The notes under the pieces are model-generated. The model saw only the letters and a list, made by a program, of their open reading frames with translations, did not search any database and was not told the DNA's origin. 64,000 bases of DNA, from the NCBI RefSeq assembly GCF_014205135.1, contig NZ_JACHMY010000001.1, positions 1,612,001-1,676,000 of the forward strand, given 5' to 3'. Shown in pieces: positions 3,472 to 13,228 of the stretch (positions are counted from its first letter, which is position 1; the number at the start of each line of letters is the position of its first letter). The position numbers and the translations under genes are program-made. Origin of the DNA: Kribbella italica. GTDB taxonomy: Bacteria; Actinomycetota; Actinomycetes; Propionibacteriales; Kribbellaceae.

Positions 3472-4224
3472 ATGGGACAGCTGGAAGGTAAGACGGCCGT
3501 GGTCACCGGGGGCAGCACCGGGATCGGTCTGGCCACCGCCGTACGGCTCGCGGACGAGGGCGCGCACGTGTTCGTGACCGGACGGCGCGAGGCCGAGCTG
3601 GAAGCCGCCGTCAAGACGATCGGACCGGAGCGGGCGACGGGAGTCGCCGGCGACATCGCCGAACCGGCCGACCTGGACCGGCTCTACGACGCCGTCCGGG
3701 CGCGCGGCAACGGGCTGGACGTGCTCGTGGCGAACGCGGCGGTCGGTTCGTTCGTGTCGCTCGAACAGACCACGGAGCAGCACTTCGACCAGATGTTCGG
3801 GGTCAACGTCCGCGGCACGCTGTTCACCGTGCAGAAGGCGCTGCCGCTGCTCAACGACGGCGCGTCGGTGATCCTCGTCGGGTCCACGGCGGCCGATCGT
3901 GGCGTGGCCGCGTTCGGTGCGTACGCGGCGTCGAAGGCGGCCGTCCGGTCCTTCGCGCGGACCTGGTCCACCGAGCTCAAGGACCGGGGCATCCGGGTCA
4001 ACGTGGTGTCACCGGCCTGGATCGAGACGCCTGGCGGCACTGCCGCTTTCGGCGACGAGGAAACCGCCCGGGCGGTCAAGGAGAACGTCGTCGCGACCGT
4101 GCCGAAGGGCCGGATGGGCCGACCCGACGAAGCGGCCGCGGTCGTGGCCTTCCTGGCGTCGGAGGAGAGCAGCTACGTCGTCGGCGCGAACCTCTACGTC
4201 GACGGCGGGGCGAATCAGATCTGA
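3472..4224 (+). CDS. SDR-family NAD(P)-dependent oxidoreductase
   Basis: This is a classical 250-residue short-chain dehydrogenase. The cofactor loop TGGSTGIG is at residues 12-19, NAA at 88-90, catalytic Ser138, and the YAASK motif supplies Tyr151 and Lys155. It ends with the family's C-terminal YVVGANLYVDGGANQI. Arginines at 38-39 after the second strand suggest NADPH preference (inference). The start follows a GGAGACAG ribosome site. It is divergent from the AraC regulator, as is common for small reductases controlled by such regulators. The substrate is not predictable. Confidence 0.92.
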   Translation: MGQLEGKTAVVTGGSTGIGLATAVRLADEGAHVFVTGRREAELEAAVKTIGPERATGVAGDIAEPADLDRLYDAVRARGNGLDVLVANAAVGSFVSLEQTTEQHFDQMFGVNVRGTLFTVQKALPLLNDGASVILVGSTAADRGVAAFGAYAASKAAVRSFARTWSTELKDRGIRVNVVSPAWIETPGGTAAFGDEETARAVKENVVATVPKGRMGRPDEAAAVVAFLASEESSYVVGANLYVDGGANQI

Positions 4225-4240
4225 GCCTAGGATCGGCCGG

Positions 4241-5698
4241 GTGAACTCGCTGCTGATCGCCGGGACGACCTCCGACGCGGGCAAGACGACCGTGGTGACG
4301 GGGTTGTGCCGGTGGTTGGCGCGCCGGGGCGTGCGGGTCGCGCCGTACAAGGCGCAGAACATGTCGAACAACTCGATGGTCTGCGCGGACGGCGCCGAGA
4401 TCGGCCGGGCGCAGTGGATCCAGGCCGTTGCGGCCGGCGCCGAGCCCGAGGCCGCGATGAACCCGGTGCTGCTCAAGCCGGGCAGCGACCGCCGCAGCCA
4501 CGTCGTACTGATGGGGGAGCCGTGGGGTGAGCTCACCGCGCGCGGTTTCCTGACCGAGCGCGCGGAGCTCGCGAAGGCGGCGTTCGCGGCGTACGACGAT
4601 CTGGCGAGCCGGTACGACGTGGTGATCAGCGAGGGCGCCGGGAGCCCGACCGAGATCAACCTGCGGCAGTCCGACTACGTGAACATGGGGCTGGCCCAGC
4701 ACACGAAGGCGCCCGTCGTGGTGGTCGGCGACATCGACCGTGGCGGGCTGTTCGCGTCGATGTTCGGCACCGTCGCGCTGCTGTCGGCCGAGGACCAGCG
4801 GCTGATCAGCGGGTTCGTGGTCAACAAGTTCCGCGGCGACGTCTCGCTGCTCCAGCCGGGCATCGACATGCTCACCAAGGTCACCGACCGCCCGACGTAC
4901 GGCGTACTGCCGTGGCTGCCCGAGCTCTGGCTCGACTCCGAGGACGCGCTCGACATCCCCGCGCGCCGGACCGATCACGATCCCGACGTGCTGACGATCG
5001 CCGTCGTGCGCTTCCCGCGGATCAGCAACTTCACCGATCTCGACGCGCTCGCGGTCGAGCCGACGACGAGTGTGTTCTTCACCGCGAGCCCGGCCGAGGT
5101 CCGCGACGCCGACCTCGTCGTCCTGCCCGGGTCGCGCGCGACGACCGCCGACCTCGCCTGGCTCCGCGAGACCGGTCTGGCCGACGCGGTCCAGGCGCGC
5201 GTCGCGGCCGGACGGCCGGTGCTCGGCATCTGCGGCGGCTACCAGCTTCTCGGCGGCGCGATCGACGACCCGTACGGCGTGGAGGGCGGCGGATCGCACA
5301 CCGGGCTCGGATTGTTGCCGGTGGCCACTGAATTCGCCAGGGCCAAGGTGCTCGCGCGGCCGGCGCCGACGGCGTACGAGATCCATCACGGGGTCGTCGA
5401 GGTGACCGGCGACGCCGATGAGTTCCCCGGCGGCTGCCGCAGCGGCGTCGTGTGGGGGACGATCTGGCACGGTCTGCTGGACGACGACGCGGCGCGGCAC
5501 GCGTTCCTCACCGAGATCGCTTCGCTCGCCGGGAAGCGGGCGCCGGACGGCACGGTGTCGTTTGCCGGGCTGCGCGAAGATCGGCTCGACCGCCTGGCCG
5601 ACGCGATCGACGAGCACCTCGACACCGACGCATTGCTCACGCTGATCGAGAAGGGCGCCCCGACCGAGCTGCGCTTCGTCCCTCCCGGAGCACCCTGA
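4241..5698 (+). CDS. cobQ: Cobyric acid synthase (glutamine-hydrolysing)
   Basis: CobQ amidates four side-chain carboxylates of adenosylcobyrinate a,c-diamide in cobalamin synthesis, using glutamine and ATP. The N-terminal ATP-binding domain opens with AGTTSDAGKTT and PYKAQNMSNNSMV, both diagnostic of CobQ. The class I glutaminase domain has the nucleophile in GICGGYQLLGG (Cys331) and the histidine in TIWHGLLDDD (His410). The length of 485 residues is typical. The GTG start is chosen because the fold begins there. TAGGAT lies seven bases upstream, suggesting a leaderless message. No other B12 gene is adjacent: cobT and a cobA/cysG-type gene lie 15 kb away. Confidence 0.96.
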   Translation: MNSLLIAGTTSDAGKTTVVTGLCRWLARRGVRVAPYKAQNMSNNSMVCADGAEIGRAQWIQAVAAGAEPEAAMNPVLLKPGSDRRSHVVLMGEPWGELTARGFLTERAELAKAAFAAYDDLASRYDVVISEGAGSPTEINLRQSDYVNMGLAQHTKAPVVVVGDIDRGGLFASMFGTVALLSAEDQRLISGFVVNKFRGDVSLLQPGIDMLTKVTDRPTYGVLPWLPELWLDSEDALDIPARRTDHDPDVLTIAVVRFPRISNFTDLDALAVEPTTSVFFTASPAEVRDADLVVLPGSRATTADLAWLRETGLADAVQARVAAGRPVLGICGGYQLLGGAIDDPYGVEGGGSHTGLGLLPVATEFARAKVLARPAPTAYEIHHGVVEVTGDADEFPGGCRSGVVWGTIWHGLLDDDAARHAFLTEIASLAGKRAPDGTVSFAGLREDRLDRLADAIDEHLDTDALLTLIEKGAPTELRFVPPGAP

Positions 5699-5728: not shown

Positions 5729-6292
5729 ATGAACCTCAAGCCCGTGCTGCACGAGTACCTGAGAAACACCCGGGCGCTGATGCTCGCCAAGCTCGACGGG
5801 CTCAGCGAGTACGACAGGCGCCGCCCGCTCGTCCCGTCGGGGACGAACCTGCTCGGCCTGGTCAAGCACCTGATCGGTATCGAGTACGTCTACCTCGGCA
5901 CGAGCGTCGGCCGCCCGCCGGAGCGCCTGCTTCCGTGGGAAGAGGACGGCTCGGTCTGGGACGGCGCGGACATGTGGGCGCTGCCGACAGAGTCGAGCGA
6001 GTACCTGACCGATCTCTACCGCCGGGCCTGCGAGCACAGCGACGCGTCGCTGGCCGCGCTCGACCTGGACACCCCGGCCGAGGTCCCGCACTGGCCGGAG
6101 GGCGGACGCAGTACGACGTTCGGCGCGCTGCTGGTCCGGGTTGTCGACGAGACCGCCCATCACGCGGGCCATGCCGACATCGTTCGTGAACTGATCGACG
6201 GGCAGGGTGGCAAGGACGCCGGCGCACTGGACGACGCGGGCTGGTCGGCGTACTTCACCAAGCTCCAGCAAGCCGCCGAGACCTTCCGCTGA
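5729..6292 (+). CDS. DinB/DUF664-family protein
   Basis: A 187-residue four-helix-bundle protein of the DinB superfamily. The metal-ligand histidines are in LVKHLIGIEYVYLG (about residue 47) and ETAHHAGHADIVREL (about residues 141-148), the pattern of DUF664 proteins. Related proteins include thiol-dependent S-transferases such as mycothiol-dependent maleylpyruvate isomerase, but many have no known function. The hexamer TAACGT ends six bases before the ATG, so the message may be leaderless. It lies just before an ECF41 sigma factor gene. A second DUF664 gene lies at 30750. Confidence 0.85.
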   Translation: MNLKPVLHEYLRNTRALMLAKLDGLSEYDRRRPLVPSGTNLLGLVKHLIGIEYVYLGTSVGRPPERLLPWEEDGSVWDGADMWALPTESSEYLTDLYRRACEHSDASLAALDLDTPAEVPHWPEGGRSTTFGALLVRVVDETAHHAGHADIVRELIDGQGGKDAGALDDAGWSAYFTKLQQAAETFR

Positions 6293-6314
6293 GGTCGCTG
6301 CGAAACTGAGGCGC

Positions 6315-7199
6315 ATGGAGGACGTCTTCGAGCGGGAGCGCGGGCGGATGTTCGGCATCGCCTACCGGATGCTGGGCACGGTGACCGACGCCGAGGAAGT
6401 GCTGCAGGACGCGTGGCTGCGCTGGCAGGGCGTCGACCACGCGACGGTCGCGAACCCCACCGGCTTCCTGGTGAAGACGGTCACGAACCTCTGCCTCAAC
6501 CAGCTCACGTCGGCCCGCGCGAGGCGCGAGACCTACCTCGGCGAGTGGCTGCCCGAGCCCGTCCTGACCGGCCGTCCGGGTCCGCTGGACGTGGTCGCCG
6601 AGCGGGAAGAGGTCTCGTACGCGCTGCTCACCGTGCTCGAACGGCTCACCCCGCCCGAGCGTGCGGCGTACGTCCTGCGGGAAGCCTTCGGCTACTCCCA
6701 TCGCGAGGTCGCCGAGCTGATCGGCACCACCGAGGTCAACGCCCGTCAGCTCCATGCCCGGGCCCGCAAGCACGTCGCCGCCGAGGACACCCGCAACCAG
6801 CCGGTCGACCGCAAGCACTGGCAGACCCTGGTCAACCGTTTCCTCGCCGCCGCCCACCAGGGCGATCTCGCAGGCCTGACCGAGCTCCTCGCCGCCGACG
6901 TGGTCTCCCGCTCCGACGGCGGCGGCAAGGTCAACGCCGCCCGCAACCCGATCACCGGCGCGGAGCGCGTCGCCCGCTACCTGCTCGGCGCGCTGACGAA
7001 GTTCGGCGCCGACGTCGAGTTGACCTTCGCCGAGGCCAACGGCGAACCGGTCCTGCTCGCCACCGACCCGACCGGCGTTCGCGCCGTCTGCTTCATCACC
7101 TTCACCGACGACCGGATCACCGCCCTCGACCTCGCGATGAACCCCGACAAGCTCCGGTCCGTCGAGGCGCACCTCGCCCACGACCCCACGCACCCGTGA
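6315..7199 (+). CDS. ECF41-type RNA polymerase sigma factor with SnoaL-like C-terminal domain
   Basis: Region sigma2 spans about residues 5-70 (RMFGIAYRMLGTVTDAEEVLQ) and sigma4 about 105-160 (LLTVLERLTPPERAAYVLREAF). A SnoaL/NTF2-like domain then fills the rest of the 294 residues. The three landmarks of group ECF41 are visible: WLPEP in the linker, DGGGK, and a terminal NPDKL. In this group the C-terminal extension controls activity in place of a separate anti-sigma factor. ECF41 genes usually sit beside a carboxymuconolactone decarboxylase, oxidoreductase or epimerase gene. None is adjacent here; the DinB gene lies 22 bases upstream instead. Confidence 0.93.
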   Translation: MEDVFERERGRMFGIAYRMLGTVTDAEEVLQDAWLRWQGVDHATVANPTGFLVKTVTNLCLNQLTSARARRETYLGEWLPEPVLTGRPGPLDVVAEREEVSYALLTVLERLTPPERAAYVLREAFGYSHREVAELIGTTEVNARQLHARARKHVAAEDTRNQPVDRKHWQTLVNRFLAAAHQGDLAGLTELLAADVVSRSDGGGKVNAARNPITGAERVARYLLGALTKFGADVELTFAEANGEPVLLATDPTGVRAVCFITFTDDRITALDLAMNPDKLRSVEAHLAHDPTHP

Positions 7200-7227
7200 A
7201 CGGCTCGAGGCATCGGGCGACGATGAC

Positions 7228-7258
7228 TTGACGACTGTGACAGTAGGACTGTCACAAT
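7228..7258 (+). promoter_or_regulatory. MerR-type promoter/operator of the racemase operon
   Basis: TTGACG (7228-7233) and CACAAT (7253-7258) are separated by 19 bases, the long spacing typical of MerR-family-activated promoters. The spacer carries the dyad TGTGACAG-5-CTGTCACA (7236-7243 and 7249-7256). The predicted +1 falls on or next to the ATG at 7265, implying a leaderless mRNA. The same arrangement recurs at 11948-11978 beside the MerR gene. Confidence 0.8.
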
Positions 7259-7264
7259 AGGTCC

Positions 7265-8386
7265 ATGGGTCCACTGCGCGGGGTCAAGGTCGTCGAGCTG
7301 GCGGGGATCGGGCCGGCGCCGTTCGGGTGCATGCTGCTGGCCGAGCTCGGCGCCGACGTGCTGCGGGTCGAGCGGCCGGGCGGTGGGCTGGCGATGGGCC
7401 CACCGGAGTACGAGCTGGTCAATCGCGGACGGCGGAGCGTTGCGCTGGACCTCAAGAAGCCCGAGGCAGTCGACGCCGTGCTGCAGCTGGTCGCTGGAGC
7501 GGACGTGCTCGTCGAGGGCTTCAGGCCTGGCGTGGCTGAGCGGCTGGGGCTGGGCCCGGAGGACTGCTGGGCGGTCAACCAGCAGCTTGTGTACGGGCGG
7601 ATGACCGGCTGGGGACAGGACGGCCCGCTGGCGCAGTCGGCGGGGCACGACATCGACTACCTCGCGCTGTCAGGCGCGCTGCACGCGATCGGACGCGCGG
7701 GTGGGCCGCCGCAGGTGCCGGCCAATCTGCTCGGCGATTTCGCCGGCGGATCGCTCTACCTGGTGATCGGCGTACTGGCTGCGCTGACCGAAGCGAGGAC
7801 CAGCGGCCAGGGGCAAGTGGTCGATGCGGCGATCGTGGACGGCTCGGCGCACCTGACCACGATGCTGCTCGGCGCGCTGGCGAGTGGCACCTGGAAGCAG
7901 GAGCGCGGCACCAACATCCTCGACACCGGCGCGCCGTTCTACGACGTGTACGAGACCTCCGACGGCAAGCACCTGGGTGTCGGTGCGATCGAGCCCAAGT
8001 TCTACGACGAGCTGATCAAGCTCGTCGGCATCACCCCGCCCGACCGGTACGACGTGACGACCTGGCCCGAGCTGCGCGAGCAGCTGGCCGTGGCGTTCGC
8101 GCGGAAGACGCAAGCCGAGTGGACCGAGATCTTCGACGGCACCGACGCGTGCGTCGCACCCGTCCTCGAACTCGCCGGCGAGCACCCCCATCTCGAAGCG
8201 CGCAAGGTCTTCGTCGACCACCACGGCGTACGCCAGGCCGCTCCGGCGCCGAGATTCTCCCGTACGCCGACCAGCCTCGGCGAGCCGCCGGCCAGGCCCG
8301 GCCAACACACCCGAGACGCCCTGACCGAGTGGGGTGTCACCGCCGTGGACGACCTGCTGCGCTCAGGCGCCGCCGTACAGAACTGA
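7265..8386 (+). CDS. mcr: Alpha-methylacyl-CoA racemase (CaiB/BaiF family)
   Basis: This 373-residue class III CoA-transferase-fold protein keeps the residues known to matter in mycobacterial MCR: His128 (SAGHDIDYLALSG), Asp158 (NLLGDFAGGS) and Glu243 (VGAIEPKFYDEL). The racemase interconverts 2R- and 2S-methylacyl-CoA so that branched acyl chains can enter beta-oxidation. It heads a five-gene run (racemase, acyl-CoA dehydrogenase, molybdoenzyme, reductase, zinc-ribbon protein). Its promoter carries the MerR-type dyad, and the start codon sits at the predicted +1. A CoA transferase role is possible but less likely given the three conserved residues. Confidence 0.9.
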   Translation: MGPLRGVKVVELAGIGPAPFGCMLLAELGADVLRVERPGGGLAMGPPEYELVNRGRRSVALDLKKPEAVDAVLQLVAGADVLVEGFRPGVAERLGLGPEDCWAVNQQLVYGRMTGWGQDGPLAQSAGHDIDYLALSGALHAIGRAGGPPQVPANLLGDFAGGSLYLVIGVLAALTEARTSGQGQVVDAAIVDGSAHLTTMLLGALASGTWKQERGTNILDTGAPFYDVYETSDGKHLGVGAIEPKFYDELIKLVGITPPDRYDVTTWPELREQLAVAFARKTQAEWTEIFDGTDACVAPVLELAGEHPHLEARKVFVDHHGVRQAAPAPRFSRTPTSLGEPPARPGQHTRDALTEWGVTAVDDLLRSGAAVQN

Positions 8387-8402
8387 CCCGAGGAGACCGC
8401 CC

Positions 8403-9545
<1,143 letters not shown>

Positions 9546-9598
9546 CCGCGTCGTGCCAGACTGCTGCCGAGAGGGTCTGGAGCGAGGGAGGTCGGCTG

Positions 9599-10195
9599 AT
9601 GGGGATCGTGTCGCCGGGGTTCACCGGGCGGCGGCGGAGCGGGACGGAACTGCCTCCGGGCCAGTACCTGACGCGGGACTTCCCGGTGCTGTCGGCCGGG
9701 CCGACGCCGCACATCCAGCCCGAGCACTGGGAGTTCAGCATCGCCACCGAGTCCGGTGAGGTGCACAAGTGGGACTGGCCGGCGTTCCTGAAGCTGCCGG
9801 CCGAGGAGATCACGCGCGACATCCACTGCGTGACGCGCTGGTCGAAGCTGGAGTCGGAGTGGAAGGGCGTCTCGCTGGACACCCTGTTCGCCGACGTCGA
9901 GACCAGCGCGGACTTCGTGATGGCGCACAGCTACGGCGGCTACACCACGAACCTGCCGCTGGACGACCTGCTCGACGGGCAGGCCTGGATCGCGTACGAG
10001 TTCGAGGGTGATCCGCTCGGCGCCGAGCACGGGGGACCGGCCCGGTTGCTGGTGCCGCACCTGTACTTCTGGAAGAGCGCCAAGTGGGTCCGCGGCCTGG
10101 TGCTGTCCGACGCCGAGGACCTCGGGTTCTGGGAGACCGCGGGCTACCACGAGTACGGAGACCCATGGAAAGAACAGCGGTACGCCGGCGACTGA
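9599..10195 (+). CDS. Sulfite-oxidase-like molybdopterin-dependent oxidoreductase
   Basis: The 198-residue protein is little more than the molybdopterin-binding domain of the sulfite oxidase fold. The probable molybdenum-ligand cysteine is Cys77 (ITRDIHCVTRWSKLE). Other family features follow: AHSYGGYTTNLPL, YEFEGDPLGAEHGGPARLL and YFWKSAKWVRGL. No Tat signal, haem or dimerisation domain is seen, so it is probably cytoplasmic. GAGGGAGG precedes the ATG. Its 3' end overlaps the reductase gene by 31 bases, suggesting that the reductase feeds it electrons (inference). The substrate is unknown; the gene sits inside an acyl-CoA catabolic operon. Confidence 0.88.
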   Translation: MGIVSPGFTGRRRSGTELPPGQYLTRDFPVLSAGPTPHIQPEHWEFSIATESGEVHKWDWPAFLKLPAEEITRDIHCVTRWSKLESEWKGVSLDTLFADVETSADFVMAHSYGGYTTNLPLDDLLDGQAWIAYEFEGDPLGAEHGGPARLLVPHLYFWKSAKWVRGLVLSDAEDLGFWETAGYHEYGDPWKEQRYAGD

Positions 10196-10917
10196 CCTGG
10201 CAGGCCGGCACCGTCACGGAGATTCGCGAGGAGACCGCGACCGCCCGGACGATCGTGCTCGACCTGCCGGACTGGCCCGGGCACCTGGCCGGGCAGCACC
10301 TGGACGTCCGGCTCACCGCGCCGGACGGTTACCGCGCGTCGCGCTCGTACTCGATCGCCTCGGCGTGGACCGGTTCGACGATCGAGCTGACCGTCGAGCA
10401 GGTCCCCGACGGTGAGGTTTCGCCGTACCTGGTGGACGTTCTCAAGGTCGGCGACCCGCTGGAGGTGCGCGGGCCGGTCGGCGGCTGGTTCGTCTGGCGT
10501 CCGGACAGCGCCGGGCCGATCCAGCTGATCGGCGGTGGTTCCGGCGTCGTACCGCTGATGGCGATGCTGCGTGAGCACGCGCACGCGTCCAGTACGGCGC
10601 CCGCGCGCCTGCTCTACTCCGTACGGCGTCCGACGTCGGTGATCTACGCGGCGGACCTGAAGAAGCTGGCCATGTCCGACGACGTGGACCTGACCTTCGT
10701 CTACACCCGGGAGGCGCCGCCCGGCGAGCCCCGGGTCGGCCGCGTCGACGCCGAGCTGCTGGCGGCGAAGGCGTTCGCCCCGACCGACGACCTGACCACT
10801 TACGTCTGCGGCCCGACCCCGTTCGTGGAAGCGGTGGCCGACCTGCTGGTCGCCGCCGGCCACGACCCGGCCCGGGTCCGTACCGAACGTTTCGGACCGA
10901 CTGGAGGACCGCGATGA
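10165..10917 (+). CDS. FAD/NAD(P)H oxidoreductase, ferredoxin-reductase fold
   Basis: A 250-residue FNR-fold protein. The FAD-binding motif is RSYSIAS, the nucleotide-binding loop [16 protein letters not shown], and the C-terminal element [16 protein letters not shown]. No iron-sulfur cysteines are present, so it is a plain flavin reductase. The ATG at 10165, inside the end of the molybdoenzyme gene, is preferred because ACGGAG precedes it and the fold starts there. The close coupling suggests it reduces the neighbouring molybdoenzyme (inference). It is followed by an ATGA overlap with the zinc-ribbon gene. Confidence 0.88.
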
Positions 10918-11186
10918 CCGCGGATGTCCCGACCTACCTGGACGGCAACGCGGCGGCGGGCGCGCTCAGCGAGGTGTTCGCCGTCGACCTCACCGCCGCG
11001 ATCGGCCGGTGCGCCGGCTGCGGCCACACCGGCGTCTTCGCCGAGGTGCGCCTCTACACCGCAGCACCCGGCCTGGTCGCGCGCTGCCCGGGGTGCGACG
11101 ACGTCCTGCTGCGCGTCGTCACGACCCCGAGCGAGACCTACCTGGATCTCCGCGGTCTCACGTACCTCCGGGTGAGCAACAGCTAG
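10914..11186 (+). CDS. DUF6510-like zinc-ribbon protein
   Basis: A 90-residue protein with two CxxC pairs, CAGCG at about residue 34 and CPGCD at about 62, forming a probable zinc ribbon between short beta strands. It resembles the actinobacterial DUF6510 family. It overlaps the reductase gene by ATGA and ends in a CTAG shared with the convergent MerR gene. Position after the molybdoenzyme/reductase pair suggests an accessory or electron-transfer-assisting role, but no function is established. Confidence 0.75.
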
Positions 11187-11923
11187 GGCCGGCGCCGGCG
11201 GCGTACGGTGTCGCGCTGGGTCTCGCCCACCGCGCGCTCGTACGCGAGCACCAGGCCCTGGATGGTGACGGGCTTGAACCGCTCGACCAGCTGCTGGATG
11301 TACTCCGGCGGGCCGCCGGAGTCGCGGTAGTGCGGCCAGACCTTGGTCCGGAACACCTCGGTCAGTTCCTCGGCGACCGCCCGGCCGTGGTCGGTGAAGA
11401 TCCGCCCGGCCGCCAGCACCGCGTCCACCGGCAGGTCGAGGTCGAGCAGCTCGACGCCGAGGCTGAGGTGCGCGGTCGCGACCTGGAACACGTCCTCGTC
11501 GGGCGTCGGCTCGACCACGCCGAGCGCGATCAGCATCTCGATGTCGTCGTCGCTCAGCTCCCGGCCGGTACGCCGTACGAGCGCCGGCCGGTCGAGCGTC
11601 TCGGGCAGGTCGCGCATCCACGGTGTCAGCAGGGTCCGGTGCAGGGCGATGTCCTGCGGCGACGCGTTGTCCGGGATGCGCTCGAGGTAGCCCTCGATCG
11701 CGGACAGCGTGAAGCCGTGCGCCTGCAGTTCGCGGACCAGATCGAGGCGGGCGATGTGCTCGGGACCGTAGTACCCGACGCGGCCGCGGCGGACCGGCGG
11801 AGGGATCAGGCCGCGCCCGGCGTAGAACCGGAGCGTCCGCACCGTCATCCCGACCCGGGCCGACAGTTCGTCGACGGTCAGCGTCGCCTCGTCCGGGCCG
11901 GCCTCCGAGCTCGCTTCCGCCAT
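11183..11923 (-). CDS. MerR-family transcriptional regulator of the acyl-CoA regulon
   Basis: The N-terminal MerR helix-turn-helix is at about residues 15-80: [20 protein letters not shown], then [19 protein letters not shown] long C-terminal domain of about 150 residues has no cysteine-metal pattern, so it probably senses an organic ligand such as an acyl-CoA. An ATG lies 12 bases further upstream, but TATGAT (11931-11936 on this strand) covers it and ends seven bases before the chosen ATG, which argues for a leaderless start here. The operator-bearing thiolase promoter is divergent, so autoregulation is likely. Confidence 0.87.
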
Positions 11924-11947
11924 GGCGCAGATCATAATCGCCCCGAC

Positions 11948-11978
11948 TTGACGACTGTGACACCATCGCTGTCACAAT
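11948..11978 (+). promoter_or_regulatory. MerR-type promoter/operator of the thiolase operon
   Basis: TTGACG (11948-11953) and CACAAT (11973-11978) are 19 bases apart around the dyad TGTGACA-7-TGTCACA (11956-11962 and 11970-11976). It is the same as the site at 7228-7258 except for six central bases. It lies between the divergent MerR and thiolase genes and would cover the -35 area of the MerR promoter. Confidence 0.82.
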
Positions 11979-12010
11979 CAGTGGGTCCACTTCAGACGAC
12001 GGGATGCCCC

Positions 12011-13228
12011 ATGACCGAAGCCTTCCTGTACGACGCGATCCGGACCCCGCGTGGCAAGGGCAAGCCGACCGGCGCCCTGCACGAGGTGAAGCCGGTCCAG
12101 CTGATCACCGGCCTGCTCACCGAGCTGCGGGCCCGGCACCCCGACCTGGACCCGGTGGCGATCGACGACGTCGTGCTCGGCGTCGTCACGCCGATCGGCG
12201 ACCAGGGCATGGACATCGCCCGGACCGCCGTCCTGGCCGCGGGCTACCCGGAGACCACCGGCGGCGTGCAGCTCAACCGCTTCTGCGCCTCCGGGCTGGA
12301 GGCGGTCAACCAGGCCGCGCAGCGGGTCCGTTCCGGCTGGGAGGACTTCATCCTGGCCGGTGGCGTCGAGTCGATGTCCCGCGTCCCGATGGCGTCCGAT
12401 GGCGGCGCCTGGGCGATGGACCCGGAGACCGCGCTGGAGACCAACTTCATCCCGCAGGGCATCAGTGCCGACCTGATCGCGACGATCGACGGCTTCTCCC
12501 GCGCGGACGTCGACACGTACGCCGCCGAGTCGCACGCCCGCGCCGCGAAGGCCTGGGCCAACGGCTACTTCACCCGCTCGGTCGTCCCGGTCGACGACCG
12601 CAACGGTCTGCGGATCCTCGACCACGACCAGCTCGTCCGGCCCGGTACGACGGTCGAGACGCTGGCCGGCCTGCCGCCGTCGTTCGCGGCGATCGGTGAG
12701 CACGGTGGCTTCGACGCGGTCGCGCTGGAGAAGTACGTCAGGGTCGAGCGGATCGAGCACGTGCACCACGCCGGGAACTCCTCCGGCATCGTCGACGGCG
12801 CCGCACTCGTGGCCATCGGCAACGAGAAGGCAGGCGAGGCGCTCGGCCGGGCGCCGCGCGGACGGGTGGTCGCGGCCGCGGTGAGCGGCGCCGATCCGAC
12901 CATCATGCTGACCGGCCCGGCGCCGGCCGCCCGCAAGGCGCTGGCCAAGGCGGGACTCGAGGCGAGCGACATCGACCTGTTCGAGATGAACGAGGCCTTC
13001 GCCGCCGCAGTGCTGCACTTCATGGCCGACCTCGGCGTACCGCACGAGAAGGTGAACGTGAACGGCGGCGCGATCGCGCTCGGGCACCCGCTCGGCGCGA
13101 CCGGCGCGATGCTGGTCGGAACCCTGCTGGACGAGCTGGAGCGGCGCGAGCTCCGCTACGGTCTGGCCACCCTGTGCGTCGGCGGCGGGATGGGCGTCGC
13201 GACCATCATCGAGAGGCTGGCGGCATGA
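12011..13228 (+). CDS. Acetyl-CoA C-acyltransferase (thiolase)
   Basis: A 405-residue degradative thiolase that splits 3-ketoacyl-CoA into acetyl- or propionyl-CoA and a shortened acyl-CoA. The nucleophile is Cys92 ([13 protein letters not shown]). His359 lies in [15 protein letters not shown], and the second active-site cysteine is Cys389 in LCVGGGMG. The ATG is placed about 26 bases after the predicted +1 of the MerR-type promoter. Its stop overlaps the next start as ATGA, so it forms a unit with the FadB-like gene in the usual FadA/FadB manner. Confidence 0.95.

Follow-up and report, generated by a model that had tools for sequence, protein, structure and literature searches.

A conserved molybdenum cofactor protein-reductase gene pair and its DUF6510 companion in Kribbella italica: a candidate cytoplasmic sulfoxide reductase

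Our analyses of a 64,000-nucleotide (nt) stretch of the Kribbella italica genome (contig NZ_JACHMY010000001.1, positions 1,612,001 to 1,676,000 of the forward strand; hereafter the window) have identified a cassette of three overlapping genes, which encode a small molybdenum cofactor (Moco) protein, an FNR-type FAD/NAD(P) reductase and a protein of the DUF6510 family (Table 1). The first two genes form a pair that is conserved far beyond the genus and belongs to a single clade of Moco proteins; on mobile DNA, this pair is accompanied by genes that act against, or repair the effects of, oxidation of thiols and methionine and oxidation of the chlorine type. The reading that we favour from the sequences, with about even confidence, is that the cassette specifies a molybdenum sulfoxide reductase, soluble and cytoplasmic, that draws electrons from NAD(P)H and serves in the oxidant-damage response, with methionine sulfoxide, free or in protein, as the likeliest substrate. 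All three families are already catalogued, DUF6510 (PF20120) as a named family of unknown function; within our literature search, the one-clade Moco-reductase core, its recurrent neighbourhood of methionine sulfoxide reductase (msr) genes and DUF6510 as its usual actinobacterial companion were not found described.

A reductase-linked clade of Moco proteins

The Moco protein of the window matches PF00174 (Oxidored_molyb) with E 2.7e-34 and 118.6 bits against a cut-off of 24, the reductase matches FAD_binding_6 (45.8 bits) and NAD_binding_1 (54.8 bits), both above their cut-offs, which places it in the FNR type, and the third protein matches DUF6510 over nearly its full length (E 7.3e-36, 122.4 bits against a cut-off of 26.4). 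No heme domain was matched by Pfam in any of the three proteins, and an Rfam scan of window positions 7000-12100 gave no RNA element at gathering scores. The reductase and DUF6510 genes overlap by 4 nt, and the start that produces the 31-nt overlap of the first two genes is the nearest reductase start in 24 of the 80 loci described below. Coordinates and Pfam agree exactly with an earlier note on this DNA as to the three open reading frames (ORFs), their lengths, Cys77 and both overlaps.

Conservation was followed in the best 80 of at least 596 matching stretches from a search of genome contigs, with Moco identities of 62-91% (the closest named relative being Kribbella sp. ALI-6-A, 91%). The order Moco-reductase is present at all 80 loci and the order Moco-reductase-DUF6510 at 65 of them, and this co-location, which extends far beyond the genus, supports the earlier proposal of coupled genes for NAD(P)H-to-Moco electron transfer, accompanied by a small accessory protein. 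The fixed ratio that had been proposed for this chain, read as 1:1:1, is not supported: DUF6510 is missing from 15 of the 80 loci (one of which, L092, is a contig end), and the 10 plasmid records that bear DUF6510 comprise nine that are actinobacterial, one from Gemmatirosa and none that is proteobacterial.

DUF6510 scored above its cut-off in 22 of 296 genomes drawn evenly from the phylum, and the best locus of these 22 consists of Moco-reductase-DUF6510 in 20 cases, reductase-DUF6510 at a contig start in one and Moco-DUF6510 without a reductase in one. This last locus (L185, on G028:C289), where fewer than 100 nt lie between the matched parts of the two genes, is the sole such order among the 22. 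Moco relatives (E <= 1e-20) are present in 147 of the 296 genomes, and 40 regions were fetched from this list: 13 chosen as close relatives without DUF6510, 26 more distant ones and the fragment L185. A reductase is present at all 13 close loci, and at the 26 more distant ones neither such a reductase, within about 4 kb, nor DUF6510 was found.

In a tree of 129 Moco rows (viz. the 80 loci, L146-L184 and 10 of 20 plasmid loci, the fragment L185 being left out), a single branch, with support 97/99, sets the 101 reductase-linked rows apart from all others, and their distribution requires one change, a number as low as which was reached in none of 500 shuffles. Because the rows L146-L158, which lack DUF6510, and the proteobacterial rows fall inside this clade, the Moco-reductase pair represents the core of the cassette and DUF6510 either an addition to it or a repeated loss.

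Conserved chromosomal neighbours were sought by an all-against-all ORF comparison of the 80 loci. The six widest groups are mostly shadow ORFs over the cassette genes themselves, and the next groups, which span 5 genera, consist of Moco-biosynthesis genes at a few Microbacteriaceae loci and a flavoprotein oxidoreductase-like gene, the latter identified by eye. In five Microbacteriaceae (L060, L081, L082, L085 and L091) a Radical SAM/Mob_synth_C gene of the MoaA type lies upstream on the opposite strand (checked by Pfam in L081 and L091); MoaE is confirmed in L091 and the C-terminal part of MoeA in L060. The Moco protein of a record titled Planococcus sp. APC 4015 (L105) groups inside Microbacterium in the tree, which suggests that the record is mislabelled or contaminated.

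Oxidant-repair genes beside the cassette

The Moco protein was found in 241 of 72,556 plasmid records (tblastn, E <= 1e-30); among the matches listed, it is named "sulfite oxidase-like oxidoreductase" and the reductase "ferredoxin reductase", the latter name being annotated under the match in 18 of 40 rows. The recurrent plasmid neighbours of the pair are msrA/msrB, OsmC, peroxiredoxin, glutaredoxin, ergothioneine and mercuric-reductase-like genes. Twenty plasmid regions were fetched, of which 18 are clade loci and two are non-clade relatives, the latter with no msr. A msrA gene lies within about 8 kb at 9 of the 18 clade loci, or in 7 of 15 lineages after collapsing L187-L189 and L206, the expectation per 16.6 kb region being 0.33% (1433 msrA places in 7.3 Gb); the resulting P of 2e-14, or 2e-5 if msrA were 20 times denser, ignores shared ancestry and is a guide only.

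The regions from Citrobacter, Klebsiella and Acinetobacter (L187, L188 and L189, respectively) represent one near-identical oxidant-repair island, with the order msrB-msrA-GST-CorA-ADH-heme-binding-DUF1330 ... Moco-reductase-grxC-DUF427 ... DUF417 in the first two; the gene table of the third is without several of these genes, msrA being found there by tblastn. In 93 of the 241 plasmid records the Moco copy shares at least 99% identity with that of Citrobacter, and some copies are in two pieces. The Aquincola and Comamonas operons, which are clearly related though counted as separate lineages, share the order msrA-redoxin-SelO-msrB-OsmC-DUF427-mercuric-reductase-like-Moco-reductase-egtB-egtD. 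Both msrA and msrB are found near the S. fredii and Mesorhizobium copies (the latter also with OsmC and peroxiredoxins), msrA stands ahead of the cassette on a Streptomyces plasmid, and msrA, msrB and a redoxin are near the copy on a Paracoccus plasmid by tblastn. At one further Streptomyces plasmid locus (L200) no reductase was matched.

Similar neighbours recur beside a second cassette in Kribbella. A further Moco gene, of about 60% identity, is present elsewhere in the genome in 16 of 38 Kribbella, and 15 such loci were fetched (the places in G311:C2, G330 and G331:C113 were left out). Moco, reductase and DUF6510 genes occur together at 12 of the 15, the reductase of L215 being in two pieces, and the other loci are partial. 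A msrA gene is present at five (L210, L215, L217, L218 and L219) versus 0.04 expected, and msrB at four. In L215, L217, L218 and L219 the order is Moco, reductase, DUF6510, msrB, msrA on one strand, with 0.9-2.3 kb from DUF6510 to msrB and a gene of the opposite strand between them in L215 and L219. MsrA and MsrB of L217 were confirmed by Pfam, and coordinates place msrA within 3 kb at G330:C21 and at a stop-bearing DUF6510 gene in G313:C5. Pfam also matched a carboxymuconolactone decarboxylase-type protein, a nitroreductase, a zinc-type dehydrogenase and a ferritin-like protein near the msr-linked Kribbella cassettes. Because these genomes are related, the Kribbella msr cases count as about one event. 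Among the second loci, five (L209, L210, L211, L215 and L216) carry an extra, reductase-less Moco gene about 2-8 kb from the cassette, and only a fragment of a Moco gene adjoins DUF6510 at L212 and L213.

On the chromosome of Microbacterium sp. MAH-37 (L111), the genes for the Moco protein, reductase, DUF6510, MsrB and MsrA (the last confirmed by Pfam) follow one another on one strand, msrB standing directly after DUF6510, and in Agromyces (L091) msrB and msrA lie 3-4 kb downstream on the opposite strand. The 26 non-clade loci have no MsrA and one MsrB: at L160 (positions 4001-4940) msrB begins about 20 bp after the match of a non-clade Moco protein. From this locus, the link with methionine sulfoxide may be older than the partnership with the reductase. 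E. coli MsrQ had no tblastn match (E <= 1e-8) at 93 chromosomal clade loci, at 16 plasmid loci or in window positions 1-25000.

The Moco protein, its partners and the likely reaction

The columns of the Moco protein have a mean identity of 74% over 35 aligned rows, and Cys77, Val78, Thr79, Trp81, Trp88, Tyr115-Asn118, His144-Pro147, Arg149 and Trp158-Trp163 are invariant, Ser82 being nearly so. Cys77 is the predicted molybdenum ligand: in alignment it pairs with the corresponding cysteine of E. coli MsrP, and the two proteins have in common the Val, Trp and Ser of the motif Cys-Val-x-x-Trp-Ser as well as a later Trp, an MsrP-like loop that would argue for a sulfoxide reductase. The structural model (mean pLDDT 83.6, with low confidence at residues 1-14 and 188-198) matches sulfite dehydrogenase 2blf (Z 19.6, 169 residues aligned, root-mean-square deviation (rmsd) 3.4), yeast nitrate reductase 2bii (Z 17.6, 163 aligned, rmsd 2.7) and YedY 1xdy (Z 17.0, 174 aligned, rmsd 3.0). 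PF00174 spans residues 34-178 of 198, and no C-terminal dimerisation domain or other Pfam family was matched.

The reductase carries the motifs RSYS, GGGSG and a T/S-R ... R pattern near residues 181-193 (Arg182 nearly invariant, Arg193 invariant), which we take to recall NADPH-using FNRs; its best solved sequence relative is 1krh, and Pfam matched no [2Fe-2S] or ferredoxin domain in it. A dedicated FAD/NAD(P)H reductase suggests that the molybdenum centre receives electrons. In the mechanism that we propose from the gene pairing, NADPH, probably in preference to NADH, would reduce the FAD of the reductase, the FAD would pass electrons to a molybdenum centre held by Cys77, and this centre would reduce the sulfoxide.

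Docking of the reductase may involve an N-terminal GF-x-GR arm (residues 7-11), with which the Moco protein directly starts and which, by eye, stands right before the Moco domain within the low-confidence part of the model. Phe8 of this arm is present in 93 of 93 reductase-linked rows; the contrast with the rows outside the clade, among which the fragment L185 was counted, is partly built in, as those rows are cut at the profile start. About 6 of 26 non-clade rows have a similar GFF- or SFF-type start by eye, and one reductase-bearing locus (L131, in G008) has no readable arm; these cases speak against the arm being confined to reductase-linked proteins, and as a sign of the partnership it is suggestive only.

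The likeliest role of DUF6510, a mainly actinobacterial accessory that would be dispensable in some lineages, is that of an adaptor or assembly factor that binds zinc. Its CxxC motifs stand at residues 33-36 and 58-61, and Asp10 and Asn12 (DxN), Cys33, Cys36, Arg57, Cys58 and Cys61 (CxxC...RCxxC) are invariant in 37 rows. Its model (pLDDT 89) gave nothing in Foldseek at E <= 0.001 and weak fold matches (best Z 4.3), which include small ribosomal subunit chains (Z 3.6-4.2), presumably zinc-ribbon proteins, and LGP2, cereblon, Mis18 and MsrB1 chains; rubredoxins are absent from this list, which excludes nothing. A role as a required electron carrier is made unlikely by the loci that lack DUF6510, and none of the 27 such loci examined has a substitute ORF with CxxC...CxxC in the 1.2 kb that follow the reductase. 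In one Streptomyces plasmid cassette (L192, positions 9300-9700) the DUF6510 gene has an in-frame stop, consistent with DUF6510 being dispensable there.

Several results weigh against a methionine sulfoxide reductase. The Moco model is no closer in fold to YedY than to yeast nitrate reductase and sulfite dehydrogenases, the residue two past the molybdenum cysteine is Thr79 in 35 of 35 rows and Glu in MsrP, and the MsrP equivalog model NF003767 scored 44.7 bits, below its cut-off of 207. Among the 93 chromosomal clade loci, MsrA is near two and MsrB near three, and there is no Msr gene in window positions 1-25000. Some plasmid copies (L196, L203, L204 and L205) gave no match to an oxidant gene, and such matches are absent from the Phyllobacterium, Gemmatirosa and Arthrobacter plasmids and from one of Streptomyces. 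The plasmid lineages, moreover, cannot be counted as fully independent of those in Kribbella. A literature search, which covered few subscription papers, gave no biochemistry on the cassette and no description of it, and nothing was found on DUF6510.

A substrate of another kind within the same oxidant-defence setting (viz. an N-oxide, N-hydroxyl or N-chloro compound, chlorate or another electrophile), reduced in the manner of mARC or eukaryotic nitrate reductase, is a tentative alternative that we consider rather unlikely. The combination of a Moco domain with an FNR domain resembles the partner set of nitrate reductase, whose yeast structure the Moco model matches, and mARC works with cytochrome b5 reductase; moreover, the islands hold mercuric-reductase-like, nitroreductase and quinone-reductase-like genes, and the copy in Sinorhizobium mexicanum has a chloride channel gene and a DUF417 gene nearby and no msrA match. 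However, MsrA and MsrB recur more often than any other oxidant-related neighbour searched for, and the molybdenum loop is nearer to that of MsrP than to that of sulfite oxidase.

It is improbable that the Moco protein instead oxidises sulfite or another sulfur compound, with electrons passing through the reductase to NAD(P)+ in sulfur scavenging, although this would accord with its "sulfite oxidase-like" annotation, with the YeeE/YedE thiosulfate-transporter genes that adjoin the S. fredii copy and with a TauE/SafE gene near the Aquincola copy. The equivalog models of SorA, SorT and SoxC scored 22.9, 24 and 39.8 bits, far below their cut-offs of 600, 570 and 420, the dimerisation domain is unmatched, and Trp81 stands four residues past the molybdenum cysteine in place of the Arg of plant sulfite oxidase, where another Arg follows, lining the anion site. 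In addition, FAD within the sulfite oxidase family is limited to plant nitrate reductases according to the part of a 2020 review drawn on here (PMC7759655). A Gordonia gene with the product name "sulfite oxidase-like oxidoreductase" was higher on organosulfur sources than on sulfate, in the portion of the report concerned (PMC7661421); this gene, likened to ours by product name only, fits sulfur metabolism as well as oxidant repair.

Among known systems, a sulfoxide reductase of this kind would most resemble the periplasmic MsrPQ (YedYZ) of E. coli, with which the cassette shares the sulfite-oxidase fold, the molybdenum cysteine in a matching loop and, on the evidence of neighbouring genes only, a setting of reactive-chlorine and methionine sulfoxide repair. 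The same part of the review describes msrPQ as induced by hypochlorite and MsrP as the only molybdenum sulfoxide reductase outside the DMSO reductase family (PMC7759655). Unlike MsrP, which has 334 amino acids and Glu two past the cysteine, the Moco protein of the cassette has 198, Thr at that position and, by eye, no export signal; its partner is a soluble FNR-type reductase in place of the membrane heme protein MsrQ, and DUF6510 is additional. The clade probably belongs to the group 3 sulfite oxidase family, described there as uncharacterised cytoplasmic single-subunit enzymes (PMC7759655), with which it shares a small, probably cytoplasmic Moco protein of the same fold; it differs in its own reductase and recurrent msr neighbours, the passage on group 3 stating no partner or function. 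Eukaryotic assimilatory nitrate reductase likewise joins a Moco domain of this fold to an FNR-type FAD/NAD(P)H module, but in one chain, whereas the cassette encodes separate proteins with no cytochrome b5 gene and an MsrP-like molybdenum loop. Reductases of the BenC, PaaE and MmoC type share FAD_binding_6 and NAD_binding_1 with ours, which differs in having no matched ferredoxin domain and a Moco protein, not an oxygenase, as its partner.

The cassette thus gives a probable part of an uncharacterised cytoplasmic branch a redox partner, a one-clade origin and a candidate substrate class, and it sets DUF6510 in a fixed gene neighbourhood and a mechanistic context. Broad-host plasmids carry the two-gene core and, if tolerance to chlorine-type oxidants is its role, this would bear on plasmid persistence in sewage and hospitals. 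A fuller picture, unlikely to be right in every part, would be a cytoplasmic molybdenum methionine sulfoxide reductase working beside MsrA and MsrB with its own NADPH-flavin reductase, a single-iron, rubredoxin-like DUF6510 that relays or gates electrons in actinobacteria, and a plasmid-borne spread of the two-gene core through Proteobacteria, including hospital isolates, within reactive-chlorine tolerance islands.

The acyl-CoA setting of the window

The earlier note had placed the cassette in an acyl-CoA operon and suggested an S- or N-oxide as substrate, possibly an acyl-related sulfoxide or an oxidised CoA species. The oxide part of this suggestion agrees with the recurrent msrA/msrB neighbours; the acyl- or CoA-related part is unsupported, and we regard such a substrate as very improbable. 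In its favour, the gap from the stop codon of the acyl-CoA dehydrogenase to the start of the Moco gene is 53 nt in the window, and CoA-transferase-like genes are near 4 of the 80 loci, though on the opposite strand in three cases. However, tblastn of the window neighbours found the dehydrogenase at one of the 80 loci and at none of the 79 fetched loci beyond Kribbella. Within the 38 Kribbella genomes, 36 have the Moco gene and 36 have DUF6510; one Moco-bearing genome (G298) has no dehydrogenase at the threshold used, and in the other 35 the two genes are less than 250 bp apart on the same strand in 10, on opposite strands in two and 0.7-5.1 kb apart in 23. These spacings and the absence of the dehydrogenase elsewhere speak against membership in an acyl-CoA operon, and the arrangement in the window is local and incidental.

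Table 1. Coordinates of the cassette genes and their neighbours in the window.
Feature	Position	Strand	Remarks
Moco protein gene	9599..10195	+	ATG to TGA, 198 aa, PF00174 match
FNR-type FAD/NAD(P) reductase gene	10165..10917	+	ATG to TGA, 250 aa, PF00970 and PF00175
DUF6510 gene	10914..11186	+	ATG to TAG, 90 aa, PF20120 match
Moco/reductase overlap, 31 nt	10165..10195	+	reductase start inside conserved Gly-Asp-Pro-Trp codons of the Moco gene
Acyl-CoA dehydrogenase gene	8403..9545	+	directly upstream; start codon chosen by us; judged outside the system
MerR-type regulator gene	11183..11935	-	convergent on DUF6510; judged outside the system
Class III CoA-transferase family gene	7265-8386		PF02515 (CoA_transf_3)

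Two labels given earlier to the flanking genes are to be revised. The supposed racemase is the class III CoA-transferase family protein of Table 1, and the "MerR regulon" is unsupported: the MerR gene, which was found at one of the 80 loci, is convergent with the DUF6510 gene, and the final 4 nt are common to both. Upstream of the CoA-transferase gene, window positions 5729-7199 contain a mycothiol-S-transferase family gene (PF04978) and a SigJ-type sigma factor gene.

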